From Micromonospora sp. FIMYZ51 (GTDB lineage: Bacteria; Actinomycetota; Actinomycetes; Mycobacteriales; Micromonosporaceae): a stretch of 64,000 nucleotides of DNA. Positions 19,792 to 32,206 of the stretch are shown piece by piece (positions within the stretch are counted from its first letter, which is position 1; each line of letters starts with the position of its first letter). The position numbers and the translations under genes are program-made. The stretch lies in contig NZ_CP134706.1 in assembly GCF_038246755.1 (NCBI RefSeq), forward strand, positions 5,270,001-5,334,000. Reading direction: 5' to 3'. The notes below the pieces were generated by a model, which did no database searches, was not told where the DNA came from, and saw only the letters and a program-made list of their open reading frames with translations.

Positions 19792-21051
19792 CTATGGCCG
19801 GGTCGGATTTTCATTTCGGTGGGTATCACGCCCGGTGAGCAGACTAGCCGGACCTATGACGGACCGCCCGAAACGGGCAGCCGCGGCGTCGGCGGCGGCC
19901 TCCGCCTCGCGCCAGCCGCGCTCAGGTGCACCGAGGGCGAGCTGTCGGGGCGTCTCGGCCGCCGCAGTGAGCCCTTCGGCCCGTACGCCGACCAGACGGA
20001 TCGGCTCACCCGGGTGCAGGGCGGTGAAGAGGGACCAGGACGTGTCGAACATCTCCCGGGCGACATCGGTGGGCACGTCCAGGGTGCGCGAGCGGGTGAA
20101 CGTCCGAAAGTCGGATATCCGCACCTTCACCGAAATCGTCCGCCCCACCTGCCCGGCGGCGCGCAACCGGGCCCCGACCTTCTCGGCCAGCGCGAGCAGG
20201 GTGCGCCGGATCTCGGCCGGGTCGACGACGTCGACGTCGAAGGTGACCTCCGCACCGATCGACTTCTCGACCTGCTCCGGGCTGACCCGGCGCGGGTCCC
20301 GCCCGGCGGCCAGTTCGTGCAGGTGCACCGCAGCCGCCTCGCCGAGCGCGGTGCGCAGCATGCCGACCGGTGCCGCCGCGAGGTCACCGACGGTGCGCAG
20401 ACCGAGCCGCAACAGCGCCTGCTCGGAGCGCTCACCGACCCCCCAGAGGGCGGAGACCGGCAGCGGATGGAGGAAGTCGAGCACCTGCGCGGCCGGGACG
20501 ACGAGCAGGCCGTCGGGCTTGGCCCGGGTCGACCCGAGCTTTGCCACGAACTTGGTCGGCGCCACCCCGACCGAGCAGGTCAGCCCCTGCTCGGCGGCGA
20601 CCCGCTCGCGGATGTGCCGGGCGATCGCGGCAGGCGGGCCGAAGAGCCGCCGGGCACCGGCGACGTCGAGGAACGCCTCGTCCAACGAGAGTGGCTCGAC
20701 CAGCGGCGTGACGTCGCGGAAGATCTGCATGACCGCCCGCGAGGCGGCCGAGTAGCGGGTGAAGTCCGGCGGTAGGAAGACCGCGTGCGGGCAGAGCGCG
20801 CGGGCCCGCATGGTCGGCATCGCGCTGCGTACCCCGTAGCGGCGGGCCTGGTAGCTGGCCGAGCTGACCACGCCGCGCGGACCGACTCCGCCGACCACGA
20901 CGGCCCGGCCGCGCAGCTCCGGCCGGTGGCGCACCTCCACCGAGGCGTAGAAGGCGTCCATGTCGACGTGCAGGATCGAACAGCCGGTGTCGTCGGCGTC
21001 CGGCCCGAACCGGGGATCACCGCCCCGGGGTATCGACTGGCTGCGGCCCAC
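19792..21051 (-). CDS. dinB: DNA polymerase IV (Y family)
   Basis: Translesion polymerase of 419 residues. Catalytic acidic residues are intact: HVDMDAFYASVE near 29-40 and SLDEAFLDV near 124-132. The steric residues and helix-hairpin-helix (LWGVGERSEQALLRLGL) and the little-finger domain follow. The start is GTG 21051, preceded at 6 nt by a -10 box TAACCT that is part of a RecA-NDp-like promoter, so the mRNA is probably leaderless and damage-induced. A clear QxxL[FL]-type clamp motif was not found at the C-terminus. Confidence 0.95.
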   Translation of the reverse strand: MGRSQSIPRGGDPRFGPDADDTGCSILHVDMDAFYASVEVRHRPELRGRAVVVGGVGPRGVVSSASYQARRYGVRSAMPTMRARALCPHAVFLPPDFTRYSAASRAVMQIFRDVTPLVEPLSLDEAFLDVAGARRLFGPPAAIARHIRERVAAEQGLTCSVGVAPTKFVAKLGSTRAKPDGLLVVPAAQVLDFLHPLPVSALWGVGERSEQALLRLGLRTVGDLAAAPVGMLRTALGEAAAVHLHELAAGRDPRRVSPEQVEKSIGAEVTFDVDVVDPAEIRRTLLALAEKVGARLRAAGQVGRTISVKVRISDFRTFTRSRTLDVPTDVAREMFDTSWSLFTALHPGEPIRLVGVRAEGLTAAAETPRQLALGAPERGWREAEAAADAAAARFGRSVIGPASLLTGRDTHRNENPTRP

Positions 21052-21089: not shown

Positions 21090-22397
21090 TCAACCCCGCA
21101 CCACCAGCAGCGGGATGGTCATCTCGGCCGCCGTGTCCGCGCCGTGCAGCGCCACCAGCCGGGACACCGCCGGGCTCTCCGACCGGCTGGCCAGCACCGC
21201 GTACGTGTCGTTGCAGACCACCACGACGTCGCCGATGCGGCGCAGGTGTTCCTCGGGCACCGGCCCGAACCAGCCGGTGGCCACCGCCTCGTCGCGGGTC
21301 AGCACCCGGGCGGCGGACCCCAGCACGCCCGACCAGCTGGCCACCACGTCGGCGGTGGCACCCGGCTCGACGTGCAGGTAGCGCACCCGGGGCTCGCCCG
21401 CGACGACCCGTACCCCGGCGGTCAGCCGGGGATCGGTGTCCAGGTCGAAACGGTCCCCCGGCGGCACGTCCAGCTGCCCGTGGTCGGCGGTGACCAGCAG
21501 CGCCGCGTCCGGTGGCAGGCCGTCCACCAGCCGGCTCAGCAGCGCGTCCACCTCGGTCACGGCCGCTCGCCACGGCATCGAGTCCACCCCGCTGAGGTGG
21601 CCGTGCCGGTCGACGTCCGGGTGGTAGCCGGAGACCAGGGTGGGCCCGGTCCCGGCGGCCAGGGCGGTGAGCATCGTGGCGGCCAGCTCGTCGACGCCCG
21701 CCGCGCCCCGGTAGTCGCCGCCCCGGTTCGCGGCCAGGGTCAGGCCGGTGCCGCCGAACTCCGGTCGGCTCACCACGGTCACCGCCACCCCGGCGGCCCG
21801 GGCCCGCTCCAGCCAGGTGGTCACCGGCTGCCAGCGCAGCGGCGACGGGTCGTCGGCCCACTCGATGTGGCTGAGCACCCGGTCGGTGCCGGGCACCCGC
21901 AGGGTGAAGCCGACCACGCCGTGCGCGCCGGCCGGCACTCCGGTGCCCAGGGTCACCAGACTGGTCGGGGTGGTCGAGGGAAAGCCGCAGGTGAGCGGCC
22001 GACCGACGGTGGCGGTCAGCCCGGCCAGAGCCGGCGCGTACGGCGCGGCGACCGGAATCTGGTACCAGCCGAGGCCGTCGACCAGCAGCACCGCGATCCG
22101 GCGTACCCCGGCCAACTCGGCGCCCAGCCCGAGCAGATCCACAGCGCCGGGCACCCCGAGCACGCCGAGTGCGCTCGGCAACACGTCCGCCAGGCTCCCC
22201 CCGCCATACTCCGGCGACACCGGTGCAAGGAAGGGCCCCTTGTTAACGCCTGGAGTAGAGGAAGGGCCCCCTTTTAACACCTGCCGAGCGCCGGGCGCCT
22301 GCCGGGCGGCGGGCAACGGGTGCGCGGCGGGCAGCGGGTGCGCGTCGGGCAGCGGGTGCGCGTCGGGCAGCGGGTGCGCGTCGGGCGGGCCGGTCAT
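21090..22397 (-). CDS. Alkaline-phosphatase-superfamily phosphodiesterase / nucleotide pyrophosphatase
   Basis: 435 residues. Metal-binding motifs are VLLVDGLGWYQ, FPSTTPTSLVTLGTG (nucleophile Thr/Ser), SGYHPDVDRHGHLSG (DxxxH) and TADHGQ. By family it hydrolyses phosphodiester or pyrophosphate bonds; the substrate is unknown. The ATG at 22397 overlaps the methyltransferase stop (ATGA). The first 60 residues are odd. They comprise DAHPLP repeats from an 18-bp tandem repeat, then LKGGPSSTPGVNKGPFL, which is an in-frame copy of the dispersed AGGAAGGGCCCC element. GTG near 22218 (MSPEYGGG), just before the conserved part, is an alternative start. Confidence 0.88.
   Translation of the reverse strand: MTGPPDAHPLPDAHPLPDAHPLPAAHPLPAARQAPGARQVLKGGPSSTPGVNKGPFLAPVSPEYGGGSLADVLPSALGVLGVPGAVDLLGLGAELAGVRRIAVLLVDGLGWYQIPVAAPYAPALAGLTATVGRPLTCGFPSTTPTSLVTLGTGVPAGAHGVVGFTLRVPGTDRVLSHIEWADDPSPLRWQPVTTWLERARAAGVAVTVVSRPEFGGTGLTLAANRGGDYRGAAGVDELAATMLTALAAGTGPTLVSGYHPDVDRHGHLSGVDSMPWRAAVTEVDALLSRLVDGLPPDAALLVTADHGQLDVPPGDRFDLDTDPRLTAGVRVVAGEPRVRYLHVEPGATADVVASWSGVLGSAARVLTRDEAVATGWFGPVPEEHLRRIGDVVVVCNDTYAVLASRSESPAVSRLVALHGADTAAEMTIPLLVVRG
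22224..22284. repeat. Dispersed paired element (copy 1), inside a coding region
   Basis: Two tandem half-units, aaggaagggccccttgttaac and aggaagggcccccttttaac, joined by a short linker. Each contains the palindromes GGGCCC and a TTAAC/GTTAAC core. The copy is read through in frame by the phosphodiesterase gene. Other copies: 35657, 45595, 58277. Confidence 0.9.
22317..22388. repeat. 18-bp tandem repeat, 4 copies, at the phosphodiesterase N-terminus
   Basis: Four 18-bp units of the type cgggtgcgcgtcgggcag. On the coding (minus) strand they give the DAHPLP/AAHPLP residues directly after the start codon. Confidence 0.88.
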
Positions 22398-23140
22398 GCC
22401 GGGCGGCGGGCGAACAGGTGCAGCTGGGCGGCCAGGTCCCGCCAGGGCGGCTGGGCGGCGAGGGTACGTTCCAACTCGACAAGCGCCGCCGGCTGACCGT
22501 CGGCCACGGCCGCCGGAAGCAGGTCGGCGAGGACGCGTACGCCGTGGATCTCCTCGACCGTGAGCCCGGCGGTGGTGAGCAGCGCGGCGGCGCTCTCGGC
22601 GTCGAAACGCCGACGCAGCGTGTCCCGGGCACCGGCGCTGCCCTCGGGGTCGACGGCCAGCGTCGCGGCCACGTCGAGGTGGCCGTTCATCGCCCGGCCG
22701 AGCACCGCCGCGGCCCGCCCGGCGACCAGCACGCTCGCCGCACCGCCCGGCCGCAGGGTGCCGGCCAGCGCGACCGCCACCAGCGTCGGGTCGTCGACGA
22801 CCTCCAGCACCGCGTGGCAGAGCACCAGGTCGACGCTGGCCGGCTCGACCAGCCCGGCGAGCGCGTCGCCGTCGCCCTGGACGGCGCGTACCCGTCCGGC
22901 CACCCCCGCCTCGGCGGCCCGGCGGCTGAGCGCGGCGAGCGCGTCGGGACTGGCATCGACCACGGTGACCCGGTGCCCGGCCCGGGCCAGCGGCACGGCG
23001 AAGCCACCCGTGCCGCCGCCCACATCGAGCACGGTCAGCTCGGTGCCGGGGCGGCGGTCCAGTTCGGCGCGGAGCACCGACCAGACCACGGCGGTACGGG
23101 GAGTCAGTGGCGGTCCGGACGGGTTCAGGGTCTGTTCCAC
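22394..23140 (-). CDS. SAM-dependent methyltransferase
   Basis: Class I methyltransferase of about 248 residues. SAM-binding motif I is VLDVGGGTGGFAVPLA, an acidic residue ends strand 2 (VTVVDASPDAL), and motif IV is VDLVLCHAVLEVV. The C-terminal half resembles the tRNA-methyltransferase-like SmtA/CmoM group, but the substrate is not evident. The start chosen is GTG 23140 because a -10 box TAGGCT (23148-23153) sits 7 nt upstream; GTG 23170 is also open. Its stop overlaps the start of the phosphodiesterase gene, so the two are coupled. It lies 38 nt downstream of dnaE2. Confidence 0.86.
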   Translation of the reverse strand: MEQTLNPSGPPLTPRTAVVWSVLRAELDRRPGTELTVLDVGGGTGGFAVPLARAGHRVTVVDASPDALAALSRRAAEAGVAGRVRAVQGDGDALAGLVEPASVDLVLCHAVLEVVDDPTLVAVALAGTLRPGGAASVLVAGRAAAVLGRAMNGHLDVAATLAVDPEGSAGARDTLRRRFDAESAAALLTTAGLTVEEIHGVRVLADLLPAAVADGQPAALVELERTLAAQPPWRDLAAQLHLFARRPA

Positions 23141-23208
23141 CTGGTCGAGCCTAGTCAGCCCGGCCCGCACCGCCAGGGCACCCTACCGGCGGCCGGTGGA
23201 AGCGCTGG

Positions 23209-26200
23209 TCAGCGGAAGTCGCGGGAAGCGGGGCTGACCGGCGGTTCGATCGCGTCCAGCCGGTCGGCGACCAGGTTTACCACTCCCTCGTGCCGCTGCA
23301 ACCGCCCGCGCACCACAAGCGCCGCGCTGGTGCGGGCCACCCGCCGGTAGCGCTGCCACAGCCCCGGCGAACAGGTGACGTTGAGCATGCCGGTCTCGTC
23401 CTCCAGGTTGAGGAAGGTGACCCCGCCCGCCGTTCCCGGGCGCTGCCGGTGGGTGACGATCCCGCCGACCCGGATCCGTCGACCCGGCTCGACCCGGCCC
23501 AACCGGTCGATCGGCACCGCACCGAGGGCGTCCAGCCGCGGCCGGACGAACCGGGCCGGATGGCTCTCCGGGGAGAGCCCGGTGGCCCAGACGTCGGCGA
23601 CCAGCCGGTCCACCGCCGCCATGCCGGGCAGGGTGGGGGCCGTCGCGCCGGTCACCGTGCCGGGCAGCCGGCCCGGCCGGTCCTGCGCCGCCGCGCCGGC
23701 CGCCCAGAGCGCCTGCCGCCGGGTCAGCCCGAAACAGGCGAAGGCGTCCGCGGTGGCCAGCGCCTCCAGCTGCGCGGCGGTCAGCCCGGTCCGCCGGGCC
23801 AGATCCGGCATGTCGCGGTACGGCCCGTGCGCCACCCGCTCGGCCTCGATCCGCTCGGCCACCTCGTCGCCGAGGGTACGCACCCCGGCGAGCCCGAGCC
23901 GTACCGCCGGCCCGCCCAGCCCCCAGGCGTGCGGTGGCTCCCCCGGCTGGCTGCCCCACCGGGTCTGCGGGGTGGACTCCAGCACCGGCTTCGCGCCGCT
24001 GGCGTTGACATCCGGTCGGCGTACCTCCACTCCGTGCCGGCGGGCGTCGTCGACCAGGGTCTGCGGCGAGTAGAAGCCCATCGGCTGGGCACTGAGCAGC
24101 GCGGCCAGGAACGGCCCGGGGTGGTAGCGCTTGAGCCAGGAGCTGGCGTAGACCAGGTAGGCGAAGCTCATCGCATGGCTCTCCGGGAAGCCGTAGCTGG
24201 CGAACGCGGTGAGCTTGCGGTAGACGTCGTCGGCCAGCTCACCGGTGATGCCCCGGTCCGCCATGCCGGTGTAGAGCCGGTCGGCGATCTGCGCCATCCG
24301 CGCCACCGACCGTTTGGCGCCCATCGCCCGGCGCAGCTGGTCGGCCTCGGCCGCGTCGAAGCCGGCCAGATCGATGGCGAGCTGCATCAGCTGCTCCTGG
24401 AAGAGCGGCACGCCGAGGGTCTTCTCCAGCGCGTTGCGCATCAGCGGATGCGGGAAGGTCACCGGCTCCTGACCGTTGCGACGCCGGATGTACGGGTGCA
24501 CCGAGCCGCCCTGGATCGGGCCGGGCCGGATCAGCGCCACCTCGACCACCAGGTCGTAGAACTCGCGGGGTTTGAGCCGGGGCAGGGTGGCCATCTGGGC
24601 CCGGCTCTCCACCTGGAACACCCCCACCGAGTCGGCCCGGCAGAGCATGTCGTAGACCTCGGGGTCGTCAAGCGTCATGTCGCCGAGATCGAGGCTCATC
24701 CCGATCATGTCGTAGCCGTGGTGCAGCGCCGACAGCATGCCGAGGCCGAGCAGGTCGAACTTGACCAGCCCGACGGCGGCGCAGTCGTCCTTGTCCCACT
24801 GGAGCACGCTGCGGCCGGGCATCCGGCCCCACTCCACCGGACAGACCTCGATCACCGGCCGGTCGCAGATCACCATGCCACCGGAGTGGATGCCCAGGTG
24901 CCGGGGGAAAGTCTGGAGCTCGTTGGCGTACGCGATCACCTGCTCGGGGATCTCCGGCACGTCCACCGTGGCCACGTCGCCCCACCTGTCGATCTGCTTG
25001 CTCCAGGCGTCCTGCTGGCCGGGTGAGAAGCCGAACGCCTTGGCCACGTCCCGCACCGCCGAGCGGGGCCGGTACGAGATCACGTTGGCCACCTGGGCGG
25101 TGTGCTCCCGGCCGTACCGGGCGTAGACGTGCTGGATGACCTCCTCCCGGCGGCCCGACTCGATGTCCACGTCGATGTCGGGCGGACCGTCGCGCTCGGG
25201 GGCCAGGAACCGCTCGAACAGCAGCCGGTGCCGGACCGCGTCCACGTTTGTGATCCGCAGCGCGTAGCAGACCGCCGAGTTCGCCGCCGAGCCCCGGCCC
25301 TGGCAGTAGATGTCCGCCCGCCGGCAGAAGTCGACGATGTCGTAGACCACCAGGAAGTAGCCGGGGAAACCCAGCTCCTCGATCATGTTCAGTTCGTGGT
25401 CGAGCTGGGCGTACGCCTGCGGGTGTGCCGCGCGCGGGCCGTAGCGTTCCCGCGCGCCCGCCTCGGTGAGCTGCCGCAGCCAGCTCATCTCGGTGTGCCC
25501 CGGCGGCACCGGGTACGCCGGCAGCTGCGGCGCCACCAGTTGCAGGTCGAAGGCGAGTTCCGCACCGAACTCGGCGGCCCGGGCCACCGCGCCCGGGTAG
25601 CCGGCGAACCGGGCCGCCATCTCGGCACCGGAGCGCAGGTGGGCGGTGCCGGCGGCGGGCAGCCAGCCGTCGATCTCGTCCAGGCTGCGCCGGGCCCGTA
25701 CGGCGGCGAGGGTGGTGGCCAGCCGGTGCCGCCCCGGGGCGGCGTAGTGCACATTGTTCGTGGCCACCGTGGGCAGCCCGGCGGCGGCGGCCAACTCGGC
25801 CAGGGCGTCGTTGCGGTCACCGTCGACCGGATGCCCGTGGTCGGTCAGCTCCACCGCCACCGTCTCCGCGCCGAACAGCGCGGTGAGCCGGTCCAGTTCC
25901 CGGGCAGCCGCGTCGACCCCCTCGGTGAGCAGGGCGGCCGGCACGTGCCCCTTGCGGCAGCCGGTCAGCACCAGCACGTGGTCGCGCAGGTCGGCGGCGA
26001 TCTCCGCCAACTCGCCGTAGCGCGGGCGGCCCTTCTCTCCGCCGCGCAACTGGGCGCGGGCGATGGTCGCGGCCAGCCGGGCGTACCCCTCGTGGCCGTG
26101 CGCCAGCACCAGCAGGTGGTTGCCGGGCGGATCCGGGTGCCCGCCCCGACCGGACGCCCCGCGTTGCGCCGGGGCTTCCGGGTCGAGGGAGAGTTCCGCT

Positions 26201-26637
26201 CCGAAGATCGTCGGCAGGTTCAGCGCGCGGGCCGCCTCGGCGAAGCGGACCACACCGTAGAAGCCGTCGTGGTCGGTGACGGCGAGCGCGGTGAGCCCCA
26301 GCCGGACGGCCTCCTCGACCAGTTCCTCGGGGTGGCTGGCACCGTCCAGGAAGCTGAAGTTGGTGTGTGCGTGCAACTCGGCGTACGGCACCACGCCGTC
26401 GGGGCGGGTCAGTTCCGGCGGCCGGTACTGCTCCCGGCGTCGGCTTCCCGCTGGCGAGTCGCCCCCGTCGGCGTCGACCGCGAGCGGATCCACCACATGC
26501 AGATGCCGTTCCCTGCCGCCGCGTCCCCATCCGCCGCCGTTCCGCTTCCCGCCGCCGCTTACCTTCCCGCCCTTCGTCCGCCCGGAGAGCACCCGCTCCA
26601 ACTCCGACCACGACAGCTGCGGATTGTGGAAACTCAC
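23209..26637 (-). CDS. dnaE2: Error-prone DNA polymerase DnaE2
   Basis: Mutasome polymerase of about 1142 residues. The PHP domain starts at YAELHAHTNFSFLDGASHPEE. The C-family polymerase motifs are CQGRGSAANSAVCYAL, PDIDVDIESGRREE (catalytic Asp pair) and FDLLGLGMLSALH. Helix-hairpin-helix and OB-fold (RIRVGGIVTHRQRPGTAGG) regions follow. The C-terminus ends soon after the OB fold, as in DnaE2 rather than DnaE1. GTG 26637 with ggggag upstream is the likely start. Family knowledge: DnaE2 performs damage-induced mutagenic bypass with ImuA' and ImuB, which are encoded directly upstream on the same strand. Confidence 0.95.
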   Translation of the reverse strand: MSFHNPQLSWSELERVLSGRTKGGKVSGGGKRNGGGWGRGGRERHLHVVDPLAVDADGGDSPAGSRRREQYRPPELTRPDGVVPYAELHAHTNFSFLDGASHPEELVEEAVRLGLTALAVTDHDGFYGVVRFAEAARALNLPTIFGAELSLDPEAPAQRGASGRGGHPDPPGNHLLVLAHGHEGYARLAATIARAQLRGGEKGRPRYGELAEIAADLRDHVLVLTGCRKGHVPAALLTEGVDAAARELDRLTALFGAETVAVELTDHGHPVDGDRNDALAELAAAAGLPTVATNNVHYAAPGRHRLATTLAAVRARRSLDEIDGWLPAAGTAHLRSGAEMAARFAGYPGAVARAAEFGAELAFDLQLVAPQLPAYPVPPGHTEMSWLRQLTEAGARERYGPRAAHPQAYAQLDHELNMIEELGFPGYFLVVYDIVDFCRRADIYCQGRGSAANSAVCYALRITNVDAVRHRLLFERFLAPERDGPPDIDVDIESGRREEVIQHVYARYGREHTAQVANVISYRPRSAVRDVAKAFGFSPGQQDAWSKQIDRWGDVATVDVPEIPEQVIAYANELQTFPRHLGIHSGGMVICDRPVIEVCPVEWGRMPGRSVLQWDKDDCAAVGLVKFDLLGLGMLSALHHGYDMIGMSLDLGDMTLDDPEVYDMLCRADSVGVFQVESRAQMATLPRLKPREFYDLVVEVALIRPGPIQGGSVHPYIRRRNGQEPVTFPHPLMRNALEKTLGVPLFQEQLMQLAIDLAGFDAAEADQLRRAMGAKRSVARMAQIADRLYTGMADRGITGELADDVYRKLTAFASYGFPESHAMSFAYLVYASSWLKRYHPGPFLAALLSAQPMGFYSPQTLVDDARRHGVEVRRPDVNASGAKPVLESTPQTRWGSQPGEPPHAWGLGGPAVRLGLAGVRTLGDEVAERIEAERVAHGPYRDMPDLARRTGLTAAQLEALATADAFACFGLTRRQALWAAGAAAQDRPGRLPGTVTGATAPTLPGMAAVDRLVADVWATGLSPESHPARFVRPRLDALGAVPIDRLGRVEPGRRIRVGGIVTHRQRPGTAGGVTFLNLEDETGMLNVTCSPGLWQRYRRVARTSAALVVRGRLQRHEGVVNLVADRLDAIEPPVSPASRDFR

Positions 26638-26737
26638 CGTTTCTCCCCCGAGCCCTGACCGGCACACCAACCCACCTGACCGGTAAACCAGCCCACTTCG
26701 CCCCGATATATCCCAAAAGTCACCACTATCGCAGTGA

Positions 26738-26844: not shown

Positions 26845-28500
26845 TCAGTCATAGATCGCCTCGATCAGCCATCGGCCGCGCTCCACGGCGAGCAGCAGCG
26901 CGGCGCCGTCGGCCAAGCGGACCTGGAACCGGGCCCGGCGACGCGCCTCGGCGGGTGCCCACCACCGCTCGTCGACCGGCCACGGGCCGGCCCAACCGAC
27001 GATCTCGGCCGACCCGCCCACACCGACTCCGCCGACGACCTCCGCCGTCGCATCGATGGTCAGCCGGGCCGGCGGGGCACTCACCGCCAGCCGGGCGCTC
27101 ACCACGACCGGCGTACCGGTGGCGTCCAGCACGCTCGCGTCGACCGGCGTGGGCAGCACCACCGCCGGCGCGGGCGGCGGCAGTCGCCCCGGCCAGGCCG
27201 GTACGACCATCCCAGCGCCCACCCGCCGCCTACCAGCACCGACCGCCCCACCGTGTTCGACGGATTCGGGCGGCGCCGGACCGGGCCGGGTGGGCAGCCG
27301 TTCGTCGCCCCACGGCACCAGCCGCGTCTGGTCGGCCGGTGACCGCCCACCGCCGAGCACGGCGGTGACCACCGCCTCGGGGCCGAGCAGTCCCTGCACC
27401 CGGCTCAGCGCCCGATGCGCCCGCTCGCGCTCCTCGCCGGTCTCCCCCCACAGCCCGGCCTGTAGCCCGGCCTGGGCGATCATCCCGTCCGGCACCAGCC
27501 GAAGCCGGATGATCCCCGCGGTGGGCCGGGCCGGTGCGCCCCGGCGGGCACCGGTGAGCCAGCCGTCCAGTTGCCAGCGGACCCGGTCGGCGATCGCCGC
27601 CGCGGTGAGCAGACCGTCGTGCCGCCAGACCCGGTGCAGTTCCTGGCCGTGCGCGGTGACCGCCTCGATGCCGAGCCGGGTGCAGGCCAACCCGTGCCCG
27701 GCGAGCCGTTCGTGCAGTCGCTCGGCCAGCGTCCGGGCCGTGAACGCCGCGACATCCACGCGGTCGATCGGCTCGTCGAGGTCGGCGGTGACCGCCAGGT
27801 CGGCGGGAGGTTGCCGCACCGCCAGCGGACGGTCGTCCCGGCCGGCCGCCAGCCGGTGAGCCAACGCACCGTCGAACCCGAACCGGGCCAGCACGTCCCC
27901 GGCGGGCAGCGCGGCGAAGTCACCGAGCGTACGCACTCCGAGCCGGTGCAGCAGGTCGGCCAGGGCGGGCCGGCCGAGCGCCGCCACGGGTTGGCCGGCC
28001 AGGAACTCCGGTGTCCCGCCGGGCGGCACGATCCGGCCCTGGCGGGCGGCCAGCCCGGCGGCGAACGTTCCGTCGGCGATGCCGACCTGGCTCTCCACCG
28101 CGCAGCTCTGCGCGACGTGCTCGACGATCCGTTCGGCTGCCGCCTCCTCACCGCCGAGATACCGGCTCGGCCCGCGGGCGGCCAGCGCGCAGGCTCCGGG
28201 GCGAATCACCTCGACCCCGACCGCCACCTCCTCGACCGCGGCCACCACCGGCTCGAAGGCCCGTGCGTCCCGCCCGGGATCGTGGTCGACGACGGTCAGC
28301 CCCGGGCAGCGTCCCTGTGCCTCGCGCCGACGCAGCCCTCGGCGTACCCCCTCGGCCCTGGCCTGCTCGGAGCAGGCGACCACCCGGTTGGCGTGCAGCA
28401 CCGCCACCGGCCCGGTGGCGGACACCCCGTCGACGATCTCGGCGGCGAGCACCGGCCAGTCCGGACACCAGAGCAGCAGGGTCCGCGTCGCCACCCTCAC
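26845..28500 (-). CDS. imuB: ImuB, catalytically inactive Y-family polymerase
   Basis: Mutasome hub protein of about 551 residues. It has the Y-family fold (DRVRWQLDGW; LLHRLGVRTLGDFAALP helix-hairpin-helix), but the catalytic acids are absent. The first motif reads LLWCPDWPVLAAE where an active enzyme has HVDMDAFYASVE, and the SLDEAFLD motif is replaced by VIRPGACALAA. QTRLVPWGDE near residue 360-370 fits a beta-clamp binding motif. GTG 28500 with ggggagagcgag upstream is the chosen start. By family it bridges DnaE2 and ImuA' to the sliding clamp. Confidence 0.92.
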   Translation of the reverse strand: MRVATRTLLLWCPDWPVLAAEIVDGVSATGPVAVLHANRVVACSEQARAEGVRRGLRRREAQGRCPGLTVVDHDPGRDARAFEPVVAAVEEVAVGVEVIRPGACALAARGPSRYLGGEEAAAERIVEHVAQSCAVESQVGIADGTFAAGLAARQGRIVPPGGTPEFLAGQPVAALGRPALADLLHRLGVRTLGDFAALPAGDVLARFGFDGALAHRLAAGRDDRPLAVRQPPADLAVTADLDEPIDRVDVAAFTARTLAERLHERLAGHGLACTRLGIEAVTAHGQELHRVWRHDGLLTAAAIADRVRWQLDGWLTGARRGAPARPTAGIIRLRLVPDGMIAQAGLQAGLWGETGEERERAHRALSRVQGLLGPEAVVTAVLGGGRSPADQTRLVPWGDERLPTRPGPAPPESVEHGGAVGAGRRRVGAGMVVPAWPGRLPPPAPAVVLPTPVDASVLDATGTPVVVSARLAVSAPPARLTIDATAEVVGGVGVGGSAEIVGWAGPWPVDERWWAPAEARRRARFQVRLADGAALLLAVERGRWLIEAIYD

Positions 28501-28520
28501 CTCGCTCTCCCCCGCCCACC

Positions 28521-28543
28521 GCGATCCTGCACTTCGGGTCGCC
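28521..28543. repeat. Half copy of the gatcttgcacttt palindrome
   Basis: gcgatcctgcacttcgggtc at 28521 matches the left arm of the large inverted repeat at 42175 in about 20 of 23 positions. The right arm is degenerate. It lies in the short imuA'-imuB gap. Confidence 0.55.
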
Positions 28544-28561
28544 CGACAAGACGCAGAATGC

Positions 28562-29296
28562 TCATCCCGACGACCGCAGGTGCATGATCGGCGTGCGCTC
28601 ACCGGCGGGGGTGGCCGTGGCGGGGGTGGGGATGGTGCGGGTCAGGTTGTCGCCGGGTAGCCAGACCCGGACCTCCTTGGGGCGGGCGGCGGCACCCCGA
28701 CCGCGAGCCGAGATGGTCACCTCCCGACGGCGCAGCCGGCCCCGGCCCGCACCGAGCCCGTCCCACACCCCGCGAACCACCTGGAGCAGCACGTCCGCGC
28801 CGTCCCACCGGCCGTACGGCACGAGCACGCAGCCGCGCTGCCGGGCCCGGGCGGCCAGCCGGCTGGCGACCGAGGCGGAGACGGTGGCCGGTACGGCGAT
28901 GACCACCACGTCGACCCCGTCGATGAGCGCGGCCACCACGGTGGGCCAGTCGGGGCCGGGCTGCGGTACCAGGGCGAGCCGGTCCAGGGCGATCCCGGCC
29001 TCGGCCGCCGCGCCCGCCCCGAAGGTCGGCATCCCGACCACGGCACACCAGGAACCGGCCCGGGACGCCTCGGCGAGCAGGGCGAACAGCAGCGACGTGG
29101 TGCCGCTGTGCCGGAGCTGCCCGGCGCCGACCGCGATGGTGCTGCCCCGCCGTAGCCCGCGGCCGGGCAACAGCCCGGTCAGCTCGGAGCGGACGGGCAG
29201 CACCCGGTGCCCGGCCGCCGGGTCGGGTGCGCTGGCCGGGCGGACCAGCCCGGCCAGCGCGGCGGAACCGACCACCATGCGGCCCGCCATCGCCAT
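28562..29296 (-). CDS. imuA: ImuA', RecA-fold mutasome protein
   Basis: 244-residue protein with a RecA-like core (about 45-165), but the Walker A loop is degenerate (VGAGQLRHSGTTSLLF, no GKT), so ATP hydrolysis is doubtful. Other landmarks are CAVVGMPTFGAGAAAEAGI and VDVVVIAVPATVSASVASR. The ATG at 29296 follows gggggtag; in-frame ATGs at 29290 and 29278 are possible. Gene order imuA'-imuB-dnaE2 on one strand matches mutasome cassettes of other bacteria. A 21-bp direct repeat lies just upstream. Confidence 0.88.
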   Translation of the reverse strand: MAMAGRMVVGSAALAGLVRPASAPDPAAGHRVLPVRSELTGLLPGRGLRRGSTIAVGAGQLRHSGTTSLLFALLAEASRAGSWCAVVGMPTFGAGAAAEAGIALDRLALVPQPGPDWPTVVAALIDGVDVVVIAVPATVSASVASRLAARARQRGCVLVPYGRWDGADVLLQVVRGVWDGLGAGRGRLRRREVTISARGRGAAARPKEVRVWLPGDNLTRTIPTPATATPAGERTPIMHLRSSG

Positions 29297-29341
29297 CTAC
29301 CCCCGTCGTGTCGCCCGGGTGCCGGCCCGTGGCTGGTGCGT

Positions 29342-29383
29342 TTCGTCGGATCAGTTGAGTGCTTCGTCGGATCAGTCAAGTGC
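29342..29383. repeat. 21-bp direct repeat upstream of imuA'
   Basis: Two adjacent copies of ttcgtcggatcagttgagtg(c) (29342-29362 and 29363-29383) differing at two positions, 46 nt upstream of the imuA' start. On the minus strand one copy contributes TTGACT, a possible -35. The 21-bp period places both copies on the same DNA face, as expected for a regulator site. Confidence 0.6.
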
Positions 29384-29400
29384 GGACATGCCGTGCCGGA

Positions 29401-29444
29401 CGGCGTCCGGCCACCCTGGGTCCCGCCGTGGTGGCCGGACGCCG
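29401..29444 (-). terminator. 15-bp hairpin just after the HEPN gene
   Basis: Perfect arms 29401-29415 and 29430-29444 with a 14-nt loop, 5 nt past the HEPN stop. No T-tract follows. It may partly separate the HEPN gene from imuA' transcription. Confidence 0.55.
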
Positions 29445-29448
29445 CGAC

Positions 29449-29898
29449 TCAGGCGACGAGACCGTCGATCGCCGGCTGGTGCGCCAGGCCGAGCGCCTGC
29501 TCCACCACCGTCACGAACTCCTCGGCGGCGCGGAGCAGGTCGTCGGCTTCCCGGGCGGTGACCACCCGGGGTATGCCGGCCTCGGCGGCGGCGCGCTTGC
29601 CGGCACCGAGGGCGAAGTAACTGGCCCACTCGTCGAGTTCGGGGGCGACACCGGCGAGCAGGACCCAGACACTTGTGATCCGGTTGCGTCGGGTGGGCGC
29701 GGGACGGGCGCGGGCGGCGAGCACCGCGGCGGCGGCGCGCAGCGCCGCGAGATGGGCGGCGGCGTACCGGAGGCCGTCGGGACGGGTCCGGGCGGCCTCG
29801 GCCAGCCCCTGCCGGGCCACCGTGAGCAGTTGGGCGGGAGTGCGGTGCGGCAGCACGTGCGCGGGCACCGTCGGCGCCGGGGCCGGACTGGTCGGCAT
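29449..29898 (-). CDS. HEPN-domain protein, SAV_6107-like, under DNA-damage control signals
   Basis: 149-residue all-helical protein resembling the SAV_6107-type HEPN family. A short disordered Pro/Ala N-terminus precedes the helices. RYAAAH at residues 44-49 gives the R-x4-H pattern of HEPN ribonucleases. Whether it is an active RNase is unknown. The ATG at 29898 has ggaggag upstream. The open frame continues to an ATG at 30198, but that extension is Arg/Pro-rich and looks untranslated. It lies 5' of imuA'-imuB-dnaE2 on the same strand, about 150 nt from imuA'. Its upstream region holds two LexA boxes and a RecA-NDp-like promoter. A damage-response role is inferred from this context. Confidence 0.82.
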   Translation of the reverse strand: MPTSPAPAPTVPAHVLPHRTPAQLLTVARQGLAEAARTRPDGLRYAAAHLAALRAAAAVLAARARPAPTRRNRITSVWVLLAGVAPELDEWASYFALGAGKRAAAEAGIPRVVTAREADDLLRAAEEFVTVVEQALGLAHQPAIDGLVA

Positions 29899-30211
29899 GT
29901 CTCCTCCAGGTGGGCCGGTGCGGGCGGATCGCGCGCGGCGGAAGGCGGCTCCGGCGGCGCGCGAGGCACCCGTGACGGGCGGTGCGGAGGAAGACGCACC
30001 AGGTGGGTGGCCGGCCGGGTGCGGAGCTTCCCCACACCACACCCGGCCGGCAGTACCGGCGGGTCCGTCGTCCGCCGCCCGGGGTCGTGGGCGGCGGACG
30101 ACGGTCCTGCCTGAGCGGGCCCGGACTCGCGACTGCCCGGGGCCCGGTGCGGTCCGCGGCACCGCACCTGTCGGGAGCCGGTGCCGCGAAACACCCACTC
30201 CCGAGGGGTTG
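29899..30211 (-). other. Long 5' leader region of the HEPN gene
   Basis: About 310 nt separate the LexA boxes from the HEPN start codon. It is open in the HEPN frame but has no ribosome binding site at 30198 and is low in complexity. The most striking feature is the 16-bp hairpin at 30065-30104. It may be an untranslated leader. Confidence 0.5.
30065..30104. repeat. Perfect 16-bp inverted repeat in the HEPN leader
   Basis: Arms 30065-30080 and 30089-30104 (ccgtcgtccgccgccc and its complement) with an 8-nt loop. No T-tract on either strand. It could be an RNA structure or a protein site. Confidence 0.75.
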
Positions 30212-30244
30212 GAACGAACGTTCGAGGCAATCGAACACTCGTTC
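30212..30244 (-). promoter_or_regulatory. Two LexA-type SOS boxes
   Basis: GAAC-GAAC-GTTC at 30212-30223 and GAAC-ACTC-GTTC at 30233-30244, the second inside TCGAACACTCGTTCTA. Both fit the actinobacterial consensus (TC)GAAC-N4-GTTC(GA). Their centres are 21 bp apart, two helical turns. They lie just downstream of the predicted -10 of the HEPN promoter, a position suited to repression. Confidence 0.78.
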
Positions 30245-30256
30245 TAACTACTGCTG

Positions 30257-30279
30257 ACAGTACACCCTCCCGCCGACGA
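30257..30279 (-). promoter_or_regulatory. RecA-NDp/PafBC-like promoter upstream of the HEPN gene
   Basis: On the minus strand: TCGTCGGCG, exactly 8 nt (GGAGGGTG), TACTGT. This matches TTGTCRGTG at 7 of 9 positions, the N8 spacer exactly and TANNNT exactly. The start of transcription would fall near 30250, directly in front of the LexA boxes. Confidence 0.6.
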
Positions 30280-30358
30280 AAACGCAACGTGTGACGCGCC
30301 GACATCACCCCGACGCGGGCCCGCACCGCCGCCGCCGGGCAGGGCACGGAGATCTCCG

Positions 30359-30384
30359 CCCGGCCACGCCGCGGCGTGGCCGGG
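30359..30384. repeat. 26-bp perfect palindrome upstream of ybaK
   Basis: CCCGGCCACGCCG joined to its exact reverse complement with no spacer, 36 nt before the ybaK start. It could be an operator for the ybaK-carotenoid operon or a hairpin. Confidence 0.6.
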
Positions 30385-30420
30385 TGCACCGGCGGCCGGC
30401 GTACCGGGAAGAATGGCGGT

Positions 30421-30909
30421 ATGCAGCCACACCCGAACGTACGGGCGGTGCAGGACGCGCTGGAGAGCGCGAACGCCCGGGACGGCTCCGGCACCCCCGC
30501 CACGATCCGCCTGTTGCCCGACGCGGTGCACACCGCCGCAGCCGCCGCCGAGGCGCTCGGCGTCGACGTGGGCGCCATCGCCAACTCGCTCGTCTTCGAC
30601 GCCGACGGGGCACCGTTGCTGGTGCTCACCTCGGGCGCACACCGGGTGGACACCGCCGGCCTGGCCGGCCGGCTCGGCATCACCCGGCTGCGCCGGGCCA
30701 CCCCGCAGTTCGTCAAGGAGCACACCGGGCAGGTGATCGGCGGCGTCGCCCCGGTCGGCCACCCGCAGCCACTCCGCACGCTCGTGGACACCGCCCTGGA
30801 GAAGTACGACGAGATCTGGGCCGCCGGTGGCGTGCCGCAGGCGGTCTTCCCCACCACGTACGCCGAGTTGCTGCGGGTCACCGGCGGCACCCCGACCGAC
30901 GTGGCGTGA
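30421..30909 (+). CDS. ybaK: YbaK/EbsC-family aminoacyl-tRNA deacylase
   Basis: 162 residues, YbaK/ProX-like editing domain. Family features are IANSLVFDADGAPLLVLTSGAHRVD and VIGGVAPVGHP (GxxxPxxH type). Such proteins hydrolyse mischarged Cys- or Ala-tRNA. The ATG at 30421 is used; the frame upstream to 30376 crosses a palindrome. Its stop overlaps the GTG of the next gene (GTGA). This makes it the first gene of the carotenoid operon, an odd partnership that may be only translational coupling. Confidence 0.88.
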   Translation: MQPHPNVRAVQDALESANARDGSGTPATIRLLPDAVHTAAAAAEALGVDVGAIANSLVFDADGAPLLVLTSGAHRVDTAGLAGRLGITRLRRATPQFVKEHTGQVIGGVAPVGHPQPLRTLVDTALEKYDEIWAAGGVPQAVFPTTYAELLRVTGGTPTDVA

Positions 30910-31646: not shown

Positions 31647-32206
31647 GACTGGTGCGGTGGACCCCGGACGACCTGCTGCGCCGGCTGGACGACGTGGTGG
31701 CCGTCTACGGCGAGGCCATGGGCTACCGGGCCGACCTGCTGGAGGCTCGTCGCGGCTACATCGCCACCCACGTCCGCCGGCCCGGTTTCCGCGCCGTCGC
31801 CAGCCTGACCAGCGAGGGCCACCTGGCCGGCTTCGGGTACGGCTACCTGGGCGGACCCGGCCAGTGGTGGCACGACCAGGTCTGGCGGGCGATCGACCCG
31901 GCCACCCGGCAACGCTGGCTGACCGACTGCTTCGAAGTGGTCGAGCTGCACGTCCGGCCACCGGCCCAGGGGCACGGTCTGGGCGCCGGCCAGCTACGTG
32001 CCCTGCTCACCCTGGCCGAGGGCACGACCACGCTGCTCTCCACCCCGGAGGCCGACGAGAAAACCTCCCGCGCCTGGCGGCTGTACCGCCGGTTCGGCTT
32101 CGTCGACATCCTGCGCGACTTCCGCTTCCCCGGCGACGAACGCCCGTTCGGGGTGCTCGGCCGGGACCTGCCCCTGCCGGCACCCGAGCCCGCCGGTCGG
32201 TCATGA
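31643..32206 (+). CDS. GNAT-family N-acetyltransferase
   Basis: 187 residues. The acetyl-CoA loop is visible as VRPPAQGHGLGAGQLRAL, with the end-of-fold pattern RAWRLYRRFGFVD. Substrate unknown. It is locked into the carotenoid operon by ATGA overlaps at both ends, so cotranslation is certain by layout, but a role in carotenoid modification is only inferred. Confidence 0.87.
   Translation: MRLVRWTPDDLLRRLDDVVAVYGEAMGYRADLLEARRGYIATHVRRPGFRAVASLTSEGHLAGFGYGYLGGPGQWWHDQVWRAIDPATRQRWLTDCFEVVELHVRPPAQGHGLGAGQLRALLTLAEGTTTLLSTPEADEKTSRAWRLYRRFGFVDILRDFRFPGDERPFGVLGRDLPLPAPEPAGRS

Follow-up and report, generated by a model that had tools for sequence, protein, structure and literature searches.

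A conserved, putatively regulatory RNA leader heads a HEPN and translesion-polymerase gene cluster behind a damage-type promoter in Micromonospora

Within the window (the whole 64-kb stretch of Micromonospora sp. FIMYZ51 DNA that was analysed), the strongest and most unusual feature was a structured leader between a damage-type promoter and a small HEPN gene, a feature absent from an earlier note on the same DNA. Comparison with relatives indicates that the ~350 nt separating this promoter from the HEPN start codon form a conserved structured RNA (Table 1). We consider it probable that the locus is the head of a damage-inducible translesion operon with a regulatory RNA leader, and that HEPN is a non-catalytic partner in it. 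The whole evidence base is comparative, and our confidence was lowered very slightly because one alignment (A1) had been picked by a motif in hairpin P5 and because hairpins in the HEPN-imuA' gap extend beyond Micromonospora.

In the favoured model, LexA bound over the transcription start would hold the HEPN promoter down, and an activator of the PafBC type, acting at the RecA-NDp motif, would raise its output. Transcripts made after damage would begin with the ~350-nt structured leader, run through HEPN and continue, at least partly, into imuA'-imuB-dnaE2. With its repeated UUCGCGG-type loops in P1-P3 and the hairpins P4, P5 and P6 behind them, the leader would act as a regulatory RNA in which the P5 loop GGGGAAG contacts the P6 loop CUUCCUC or CUUCCCC; folding in Micromonosporaceae further predicts that the HEPN ribosome-binding site is covered by the P6 strand. 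The leader would probably set when or how much the operon mRNA is translated, or how stable it is. Damage-induced mutation is driven by error-prone polymerases, whose control is mostly placed at the promoter (LexA, PafBC) and at the protein level. If the model is true, a conserved leader adds RNA-level control over the polymerase operon, that is, over self-inflicted mutation, and HEPN, which travels with imuA'-imuB-dnaE2, DUF6504-dnaE or methyltransferase-dinB, would count as a translesion component that has so far escaped notice.

Table 1. Features of the HEPN-mutasome locus (positions counted from the first letter of the window)
Feature	Position	Strand	Basis
RecA-NDp/PafBC-type promoter, TCGTCGGCG-N8-TACTGT	30257..30279	minus	sequence; consensus PMC5656591; motif recurs just 5' of a LexA box in relatives
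LexA box 1, nearer promoter	30233-30244		exact GAACN4GTTC, 12 nt after -10 hexamer TACTGT
LexA box 2	30212-30223		exact GAACN4GTTC, 21 bp from box 1
5' leader of HEPN mRNA, ~350 nt	29899..30250	minus	conserved across relatives; predicted start ~7 nt after -10
Hairpin P1, UUCGCGG loop	30171..30204	minus	YCGCGR in 22/22 aligned Micromonosporaceae leaders; fold
Hairpin P2, YCGCGR loop	30146..30168	minus	motif in 19/22
Hairpin P3, YCGCGR loop	30117..30145	minus	motif in 20/22
Hairpin P4, 16-bp stem, loop ACGACCCC (consensus YCGACCCC)	30065..30104	minus	7/15 modelled pairs changed on both sides
Hairpin P5, GGGGAAG loop (30033-30027)	30010..30051	minus	9/15 modelled pairs changed on both sides
Hairpin P6, CUUCCUC loop (29993-29987), complementary to P5 loop	29981..30000	minus	4/6 stem pairs changed on both sides
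Covariance model R1 match (P4-P6)	29978..30112	minus	129.1 bits; window's own copy is in the model
HEPN_SAV_6107 gene	ATG 29898 to stop 29449	minus	149 aa; PF18726 125.6 bits
Strong hairpin after HEPN stop, without T run; possible partial terminator	29403..29442	minus	sequence; strong folds in 14/41 relatives' gaps
imuA'	28562..29296	minus	NF058630 178.9 bits
imuB	26845..28602	minus	PF00817 54.2 bits; placed between imuA' and dnaE2
dnaE2	23209..26670	minus	NF004225 1527.8 bits
SAM-dependent methyltransferase-like gene	22394..23170	minus	tblastn 183 bits to relative from L098; in cluster of many relatives
ORF without assignment	22397-21090	minus	between methyltransferase-like gene and dinB
dinB (DNA polymerase IV)	19792..21051	minus	NF002677 322.7 bits, first 300 residues

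Loci compared

HEPN loci were read from 70 of the 97 Micromonosporaceae genomes with a match (27 were not read), as the 30 best-scoring loci (L001-L030, flanks of 1.5 kb per side) and forty more (L031-L070, 3 kb). The 68 loci from other families comprised 40 hand-picked to spread over families and the best 28 of the new loci (15 from family f20); flanks of 1.5-2 kb were covered for L201-L240. The named loci (L121-L200, flanks up to 10 kb) are the 80 best of 518 relatives.

A conserved, base-paired RNA on the HEPN strand

The region 29970-30235 folds at z = -6.5, with none of 200 shuffles equally stable, and the YCGCGR loop motif is present at 2.9 copies per row compared with 0.85 in mononucleotide shuffles (22 rows). 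The 25 sequences of A1 were aligned with plain MAFFT; pairing holds in 95.1% of cells and falls to 42-55% when the partner is shifted by 1-3 columns. Changes on both sides of a pair were found in 63 cells versus 15.5 in shuffles, and none of 500 shuffles reached any of the five measures used. On the HEPN strand, G-U exceeded A-C in the A1 stems by 58:12 (p = 2e-8), as it did by 130:20 in a 51-row cross-family set that was itself fitted to the model. Because of this G-U excess, the conserved element is read as an RNA in the direction of HEPN and not as a DNA element or a product of the other strand. A1 was picked by the pattern GG[TC]G[TA]GGGGAAGC, found in 51 of 70 family loci, so that the constancy of the P5 loop in this alignment is partly a matter of choice. 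Pair counts from a further alignment, A3, were given no weight because they come from a fit to the model and count 12 second or opposite-strand hits. The P5 sequence GGYGTGGGGAAGC occurs once in the 7.05 Mb single-contig genome, at this leader. By eye, three loci from other families (L083, L091 and L093) carry a CTCGCGG-bearing, hairpin-like stretch before P4 that resembles one copy of the P1-P3 repeat.

Loop complementarity and masking of the ribosome site

The P5 loop reads GGGGAAG and the P6 loop of relatives CUUCCUC or CUUCCCC. From the 51 rows we removed one without the P5 motif and nine without an aligned P6; all seven P5-P6 pairs (G-U allowed) are kept in 36 of the remaining 41, compared with 1.9 in shuffles, and are not kept in five. 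Since the P5 loop hardly varies, this complementarity is conservation and not covariation, and it is most simply read as a putative loop-loop contact.

Folding of the 41 leaders also paired the HEPN Shine-Dalgarno sequence with P6 (0.68 on average), leaving it unpaired at 0.13 versus 0.30 in shuffles and lower than shuffled in 34 of 41. Pairing with the leader's own site ranked in the top 10% in 18 of 41 leaders in which HEPN is the first gene, compared with 1 of 14 in which DUF6504 is first. By duplex energies, 53% of generic Shine-Dalgarno sites pair with the window's P6 equally well or better. Masking of the Shine-Dalgarno as a universal function of P6 was rejected, as duplex energies were little specific in general and not at all in the window; it may be a lineage feature at most, with loop complementarity the general one. 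A more far-reaching reading, which we put forward only tentatively, is an SOS-induced RNA switch in which the loops of P4 (CCCC), P5 (GGGGAAG) and P6 (CUUCCCC/CUUCCUC) would compete, and a second, RNA-level signal after release of LexA would decide translation of the operon; HEPN would then be a general non-catalytic partner of actinobacterial error-prone polymerases that may bind UUCGCGG-type loops for control of its own operon.

Distribution and identity of the leader

Of the 25 sequences behind covariance model R1, 23 are Micromonosporaceae and also count among its matches. The model matched 60 of 70 Micromonosporaceae loci at E<=1.3e-7 (including the 23 that helped to build it), 44 of the 80 named loci (the best of 518 relatives) at E<=0.01 in the orientation of HEPN and 17 of the 40 hand-picked loci of other families at E<=0.1 (in one of which, L230, the strand was not compared with that of HEPN). 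None of the 27 named Streptomyces loci, in which HEPN is present, gave a match. Six further family genomes with HEPN divided into two with a match and four without, and the four family genomes lacking HEPN, three of which are drafts of about 800 contigs, gave none.

Across 296 genomes of the class, 21 matches were found at E<=0.01, one each, of which 19 lie upstream of HEPN; the two away from it (G145 and G367) fit the ~3 expected by chance. HEPN itself was found in 197 of these 296 genomes, so that no such RNA is recognisable in many HEPN-bearing lineages. The leader RNA sits before DUF6504 where that is the first gene, and in several other families it precedes an operon of the DUF6504-HEPN-dnaE type, which indicates that the RNA goes with the promoter and operon head. 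By these sequence comparisons, the leader appears tied to the damage-type promoter and operon head without being universal.

Among Rfam 15 families, none reached its gathering score anywhere in the window. Around the leader (29250-30450) there were 14 sub-threshold matches at E<=10, mostly to microRNA families, the best at the leader being a microRNA family at 28.4 bits against a cut-off of 100; eight other loci gave no match at E<=0.01. The actinobacterial 6C RNA has C-rich loops. Identification of the leader as 6C RNA (RF01066) was rejected, as this family is not among the 14 matches; it was found elsewhere in the genome (C1:407776-407848, 70.8 bits).

LexA boxes and a RecA-NDp/PafBC-type promoter

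The earlier note had described two LexA-type boxes 21 bp apart and a RecA-NDp/PafBC-like promoter upstream of HEPN, and both descriptions held. The boxes are exact matches, and by their sequence (GAAC-N4-GTTC near a promoter) they conform to the actinobacterial LexA operator. On the minus strand, TCGTCGGCG (30279-30271) is followed after 8 nt by TACTGT (30262-30257). Relative to the RecA-NDp consensus given in the accessible part of PMC5656591 (tTGTCRgtg-8 nt-TannnT), the promoter has a mismatch at the second T, a strong position, and another at a weak position, and we counted it as belonging to this type; the TTGTC form is present in 28 of the 38 Micromonosporaceae loci where the promoter pattern was found. 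LexA and PafBC are predicted from these motifs to act at the HEPN promoter, and the same genome has a pair of neighbouring WYL genes at 3.93 Mb, the arrangement expected of pafB and pafC.

Exact GAACN4GTTC occurs three times in the 64-kb window, compared with 0.39 expected, and none of 100 shuffles reached three. As the third match (32138-32149) is within a GNAT-type gene, none of imuA', imuB and dnaE2 has an exact box in front of it in the window, in agreement with the earlier note. Of the 70 Micromonosporaceae loci, 65 carry an exact box in the 1200 nt preceding the estimated HEPN start, and 50 of 68 loci from other families carry one in the 1500 nt before HEPN. Family f20 accounts for 15 of the 18 boxless loci in this second set, and in two of the other three (L213 and L222) a box follows shortly after the estimated start of HEPN. 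The NDp motif, counted as GTC[AG]G-N9-11-TAnnnT, ends 0-25 nt 5' of the LexA box in 37 of 70 Micromonosporaceae loci versus 0.24 expected from shuffled 60-nt stretches, and does so in 17 of 68 other-family loci versus 0.08 expected (within 1500 nt). In the Micromonosporaceae loci the median spacing between motif and box is 12 nt, which places the LexA box over the expected transcription start. Among the named loci (best 80 of 518 relatives), the box was found in 49 and the NDp motif in 29 (0.26 expected), against a background of 0.05 exact boxes per kb over named loci longer than 15 kb, and the 27 loci titled Streptomyces had no exact box upstream of HEPN (for L168 only 392 nt upstream were covered).

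Some relatives (L013, L035, L121, L122 and L133) also have two boxes spaced 21 bp apart. The match within the GNAT-type gene, CGAACGCCCGTTCG, is a perfect LexA-like palindrome, and L121 (-2492), L129 (-2314) and L144 (-2360) also have an exact box about as far from HEPN.

The HEPN protein

The small HEPN protein with an R-x4-H motif that had been proposed from the open reading frame alone is a clear member of the HEPN_SAV_6107 family in Pfam, where its PF18726 score exceeds a curated cut-off of 27.2 bits. Its closest named matches are Micromonospora (among the best 80 of 518 relatives). The AlphaFold model (mean pLDDT 87) places helices at residues 21-37, 41-63, 77-84, 86-106 and 115-135. Its best PDB neighbours by Foldseek (2hsb, 3o10 and 1wol) are all HEPN domains with probabilities of 0.99-1.00, while their E-values are weak (0.026 to 0.42, none <=0.001), and sequence search of solved structures returned only 2hsb (E 0.34). 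As modelled, the protein has the helical-bundle fold of the HEPN superfamily.

The R-x4-H of the window protein is R44-YAAA-H49, within helix 2, and R[YF]xxAH is kept in 94 of the 98 HEPN proteins read from loci. The canonical catalytic HEPN motif, R-x4-6-H, sits in the C-terminal helices. HepT H107 (of 141 residues), for example, is named in the title of structure 7ae2. Residues 86-135 of the window protein, which hold its last two helices, contain no histidine, and with R-x4-H in helix 2 the protein was rejected as a catalytic HEPN ribonuclease; by sequence and model, catalytic RNase activity is unlikely. In the part of the 2013 HEPN survey that was available (PMC3710099), the HEPN-M (SAV_6107) row gives actinobacteria and has 'No' in a column of inferred meaning, whose entry for a related family is 'Mostly conserved'. 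HEPN is most likely a helical adaptor or partner, non-catalytic, that would work with translesion polymerases, and another reading to test would be an RNA-binding regulator of the leader.

In a phylum-wide sample, HEPN matches were found in 20 of 198, 14 of them above the cut-off. A single family genome of the 101 (G095) has two HEPN_SAV_6107 matches, on contigs C35 and C84, and the copy on C35 (L029) has no exact upstream LexA box, R1 match or imuA' within 1.5 kb on each side.

Gene order around HEPN

All three genes of the ImuA'-ImuB-DnaE2 mutasome are present together in the window and, as noted earlier, on the strand of HEPN. Many named relatives share a wider order of idsA, metF, GNAT and YbaK, followed by HEPN-imuA'-imuB-dnaE2-methyltransferase-dinB. 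Downstream of HEPN, imuA' was found in 61 of 70 Micromonosporaceae loci; of the other nine, two stop at contig ends (L013 and L032), three have an imuB match only (L043, L053 and L061) and four have neither (L029, L067, L068 and L069). Across the 40 hand-picked loci of other families, where a DUF6504 gene often precedes HEPN, a dnaE2, imuA', imuB or dinB match lies downstream of HEPN in 25 and not in 15 (~1.5 kb covered). No dnaE2 or imuA' match was found near HEPN in the 27 named Streptomyces loci (flanks up to 10 kb), in which a methyltransferase is the sole searched gene just downstream. Of the two groups that the earlier note had named for a comparison, Micromonosporaceae bore out conservation of the gene order and of LexA boxes upstream of HEPN, and the named Streptomyces loci did not. 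On these sequence comparisons, HEPN appears to accompany translesion-polymerase genes often but not always.

Two near-identical 21-bp direct repeats (TTCGTCGGATCAGT..) lie at 29342-29383 between HEPN and imuA', and these could be a regulator site or elements of an imuA' promoter.

Alternative explanations

Could the conserved stretch be a DNA-level element or a peptide-coding leader and not a structured RNA? Its 5' end does overlap operator DNA, and GC-rich DNA folds easily; both-side changes, the asymmetry of G-U over A-C and the fold z-score argue against this, and a conserved short ORF was rejected for the GTGTGGGGAAGC frame (that frame only), which ends at very different lengths among the 24 relatives compared, leaving the explanation highly improbable. 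A structured RNA could still be mainly a trans-acting sRNA made from the SOS promoter, processed or terminated so that its C-rich loops (YCGACCCC in P4, CUUCCCC in P6) and its G-rich loop pair with other mRNAs, with HEPN merely the next gene. C-rich loops are present, the G-rich motif lies anywhere from 80 (L010) to 737 nt (L066) before the estimated HEPN start, and P6 of the window shows no clear preference for its own Shine-Dalgarno site over generic ones; moreover, according to the accessible part of PMC6789036, the C-rich 6C RNA rises about two-fold after mitomycin C in Corynebacterium. Against a trans-acting role, nearly all genome-wide R1 matches (19 of 21) are tied to the HEPN operon, the four family genomes without HEPN (drafts included) have no match, and the window sequence has no T-run terminator after P5 or P6. 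We regard this reading as unlikely and favour a cis-regulatory leader because of its fixed place at the operon head.

The cis-regulatory leader is itself compatible with separate transcription units, in which the damage promoter would serve the leader and HEPN, the hairpin at 29403-29442 would end this unit, and imuA'-imuB-dnaE2 would have a promoter of its own. The gap between HEPN and imuA' is ~150 nt in the window, and 14 of 41 such gaps, not confined to Micromonospora, form strong folds (-39 kcal/mol or lower over the first 60 nt); in S. venezuelae, dnaE2 has its own SOS boxes according to the part of PMC9380542 available. Folds are weaker in the other 27 gaps, however, none of the 41 gaps read, from HEPN to the imuA' match, contains an exact LexA box or an NDp motif of the T[TC]GTC[AG]G type, and the HEPN-imuA' order recurs in most family loci (61 of 70). 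We consider separate units rather unlikely; at least partial read-through from HEPN into imuA' is the predicted arrangement, and the hairpin could uncouple the two genes. As for HEPN, the earlier note had suggested, as a possibility, a damage-induced RNase or growth-slowing factor made with the mutasome, which its fold, the damage-type promoter and the conserved R-x4-H would permit. The position of R44-H49 in helix 2, the histidine-free residues 86-135 and the 'No' in the accessible row for SAV_6107 in PMC3710099 speak against it, as do the weak PADLOC match (PDC-M05B, 18.9 bits, the only one) and the presence of PF18726 HEPN in 97 of 101 family genomes, single-copy in all but one, unlike a mobile toxin. 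An RNA-cutting HEPN thus went unsupported, and we judge it very unlikely.

Comparison with known systems

The accessible text of PMC3710099, which covers the HEPN_SAV_6107 family, has no occurrence of dnaE2, DinB or 'DNA repair'; SOS-type control and translesion neighbours are features of the window. The mycobacterial mutasome consists of the same three proteins, ImuA', ImuB and DnaE2, and is DNA-damage-inducible there (PMC10421592, seen in part), whereas here HEPN and a structured leader head the cluster and methyltransferase-like and dinB genes lie downstream. The 17 same-order g45 genomes among those listed (g45 is putatively Mycobacterium) have no PF18726 match. An SOS box and a RecA-NDp motif occur together in mycobacterial recA-type promoters (PMC8223512, in part), as they do here, but the genes behind the dual sites here are HEPN and the mutasome, preceded by a long structured leader. 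The PafBC motif of smegmatis is reported not to be conserved in S. venezuelae in the available part of PMC9380542. For 6C RNA, a rise after DNA damage is reported in the part of PMC6789036 available, and here it occupies a separate genomic locus.

A literature search, with most subscription papers and all preprints outside its scope, found no paper on HEPN SAV_6107 with dnaE2 or imuB, on DUF6504 or on the leader. Actinobacterial DnaE2B systems with a standalone ImuB-C are described in PMC12926913, the accessible part of which contains neither HEPN nor DUF6504; the operons of other families here have a small DUF6504-like first gene, of conjectural relation to the ImuB C-terminus, before HEPN and a dnaE-type gene. 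In one locus (L162, 10379-14548), a polymerase of 1389 aa lies downstream of HEPN, which we call dnaE-type because it scored nearly equally, and below both cut-offs, against the DnaE1-type and error-prone (DnaE2) models (642 vs 637 bits).
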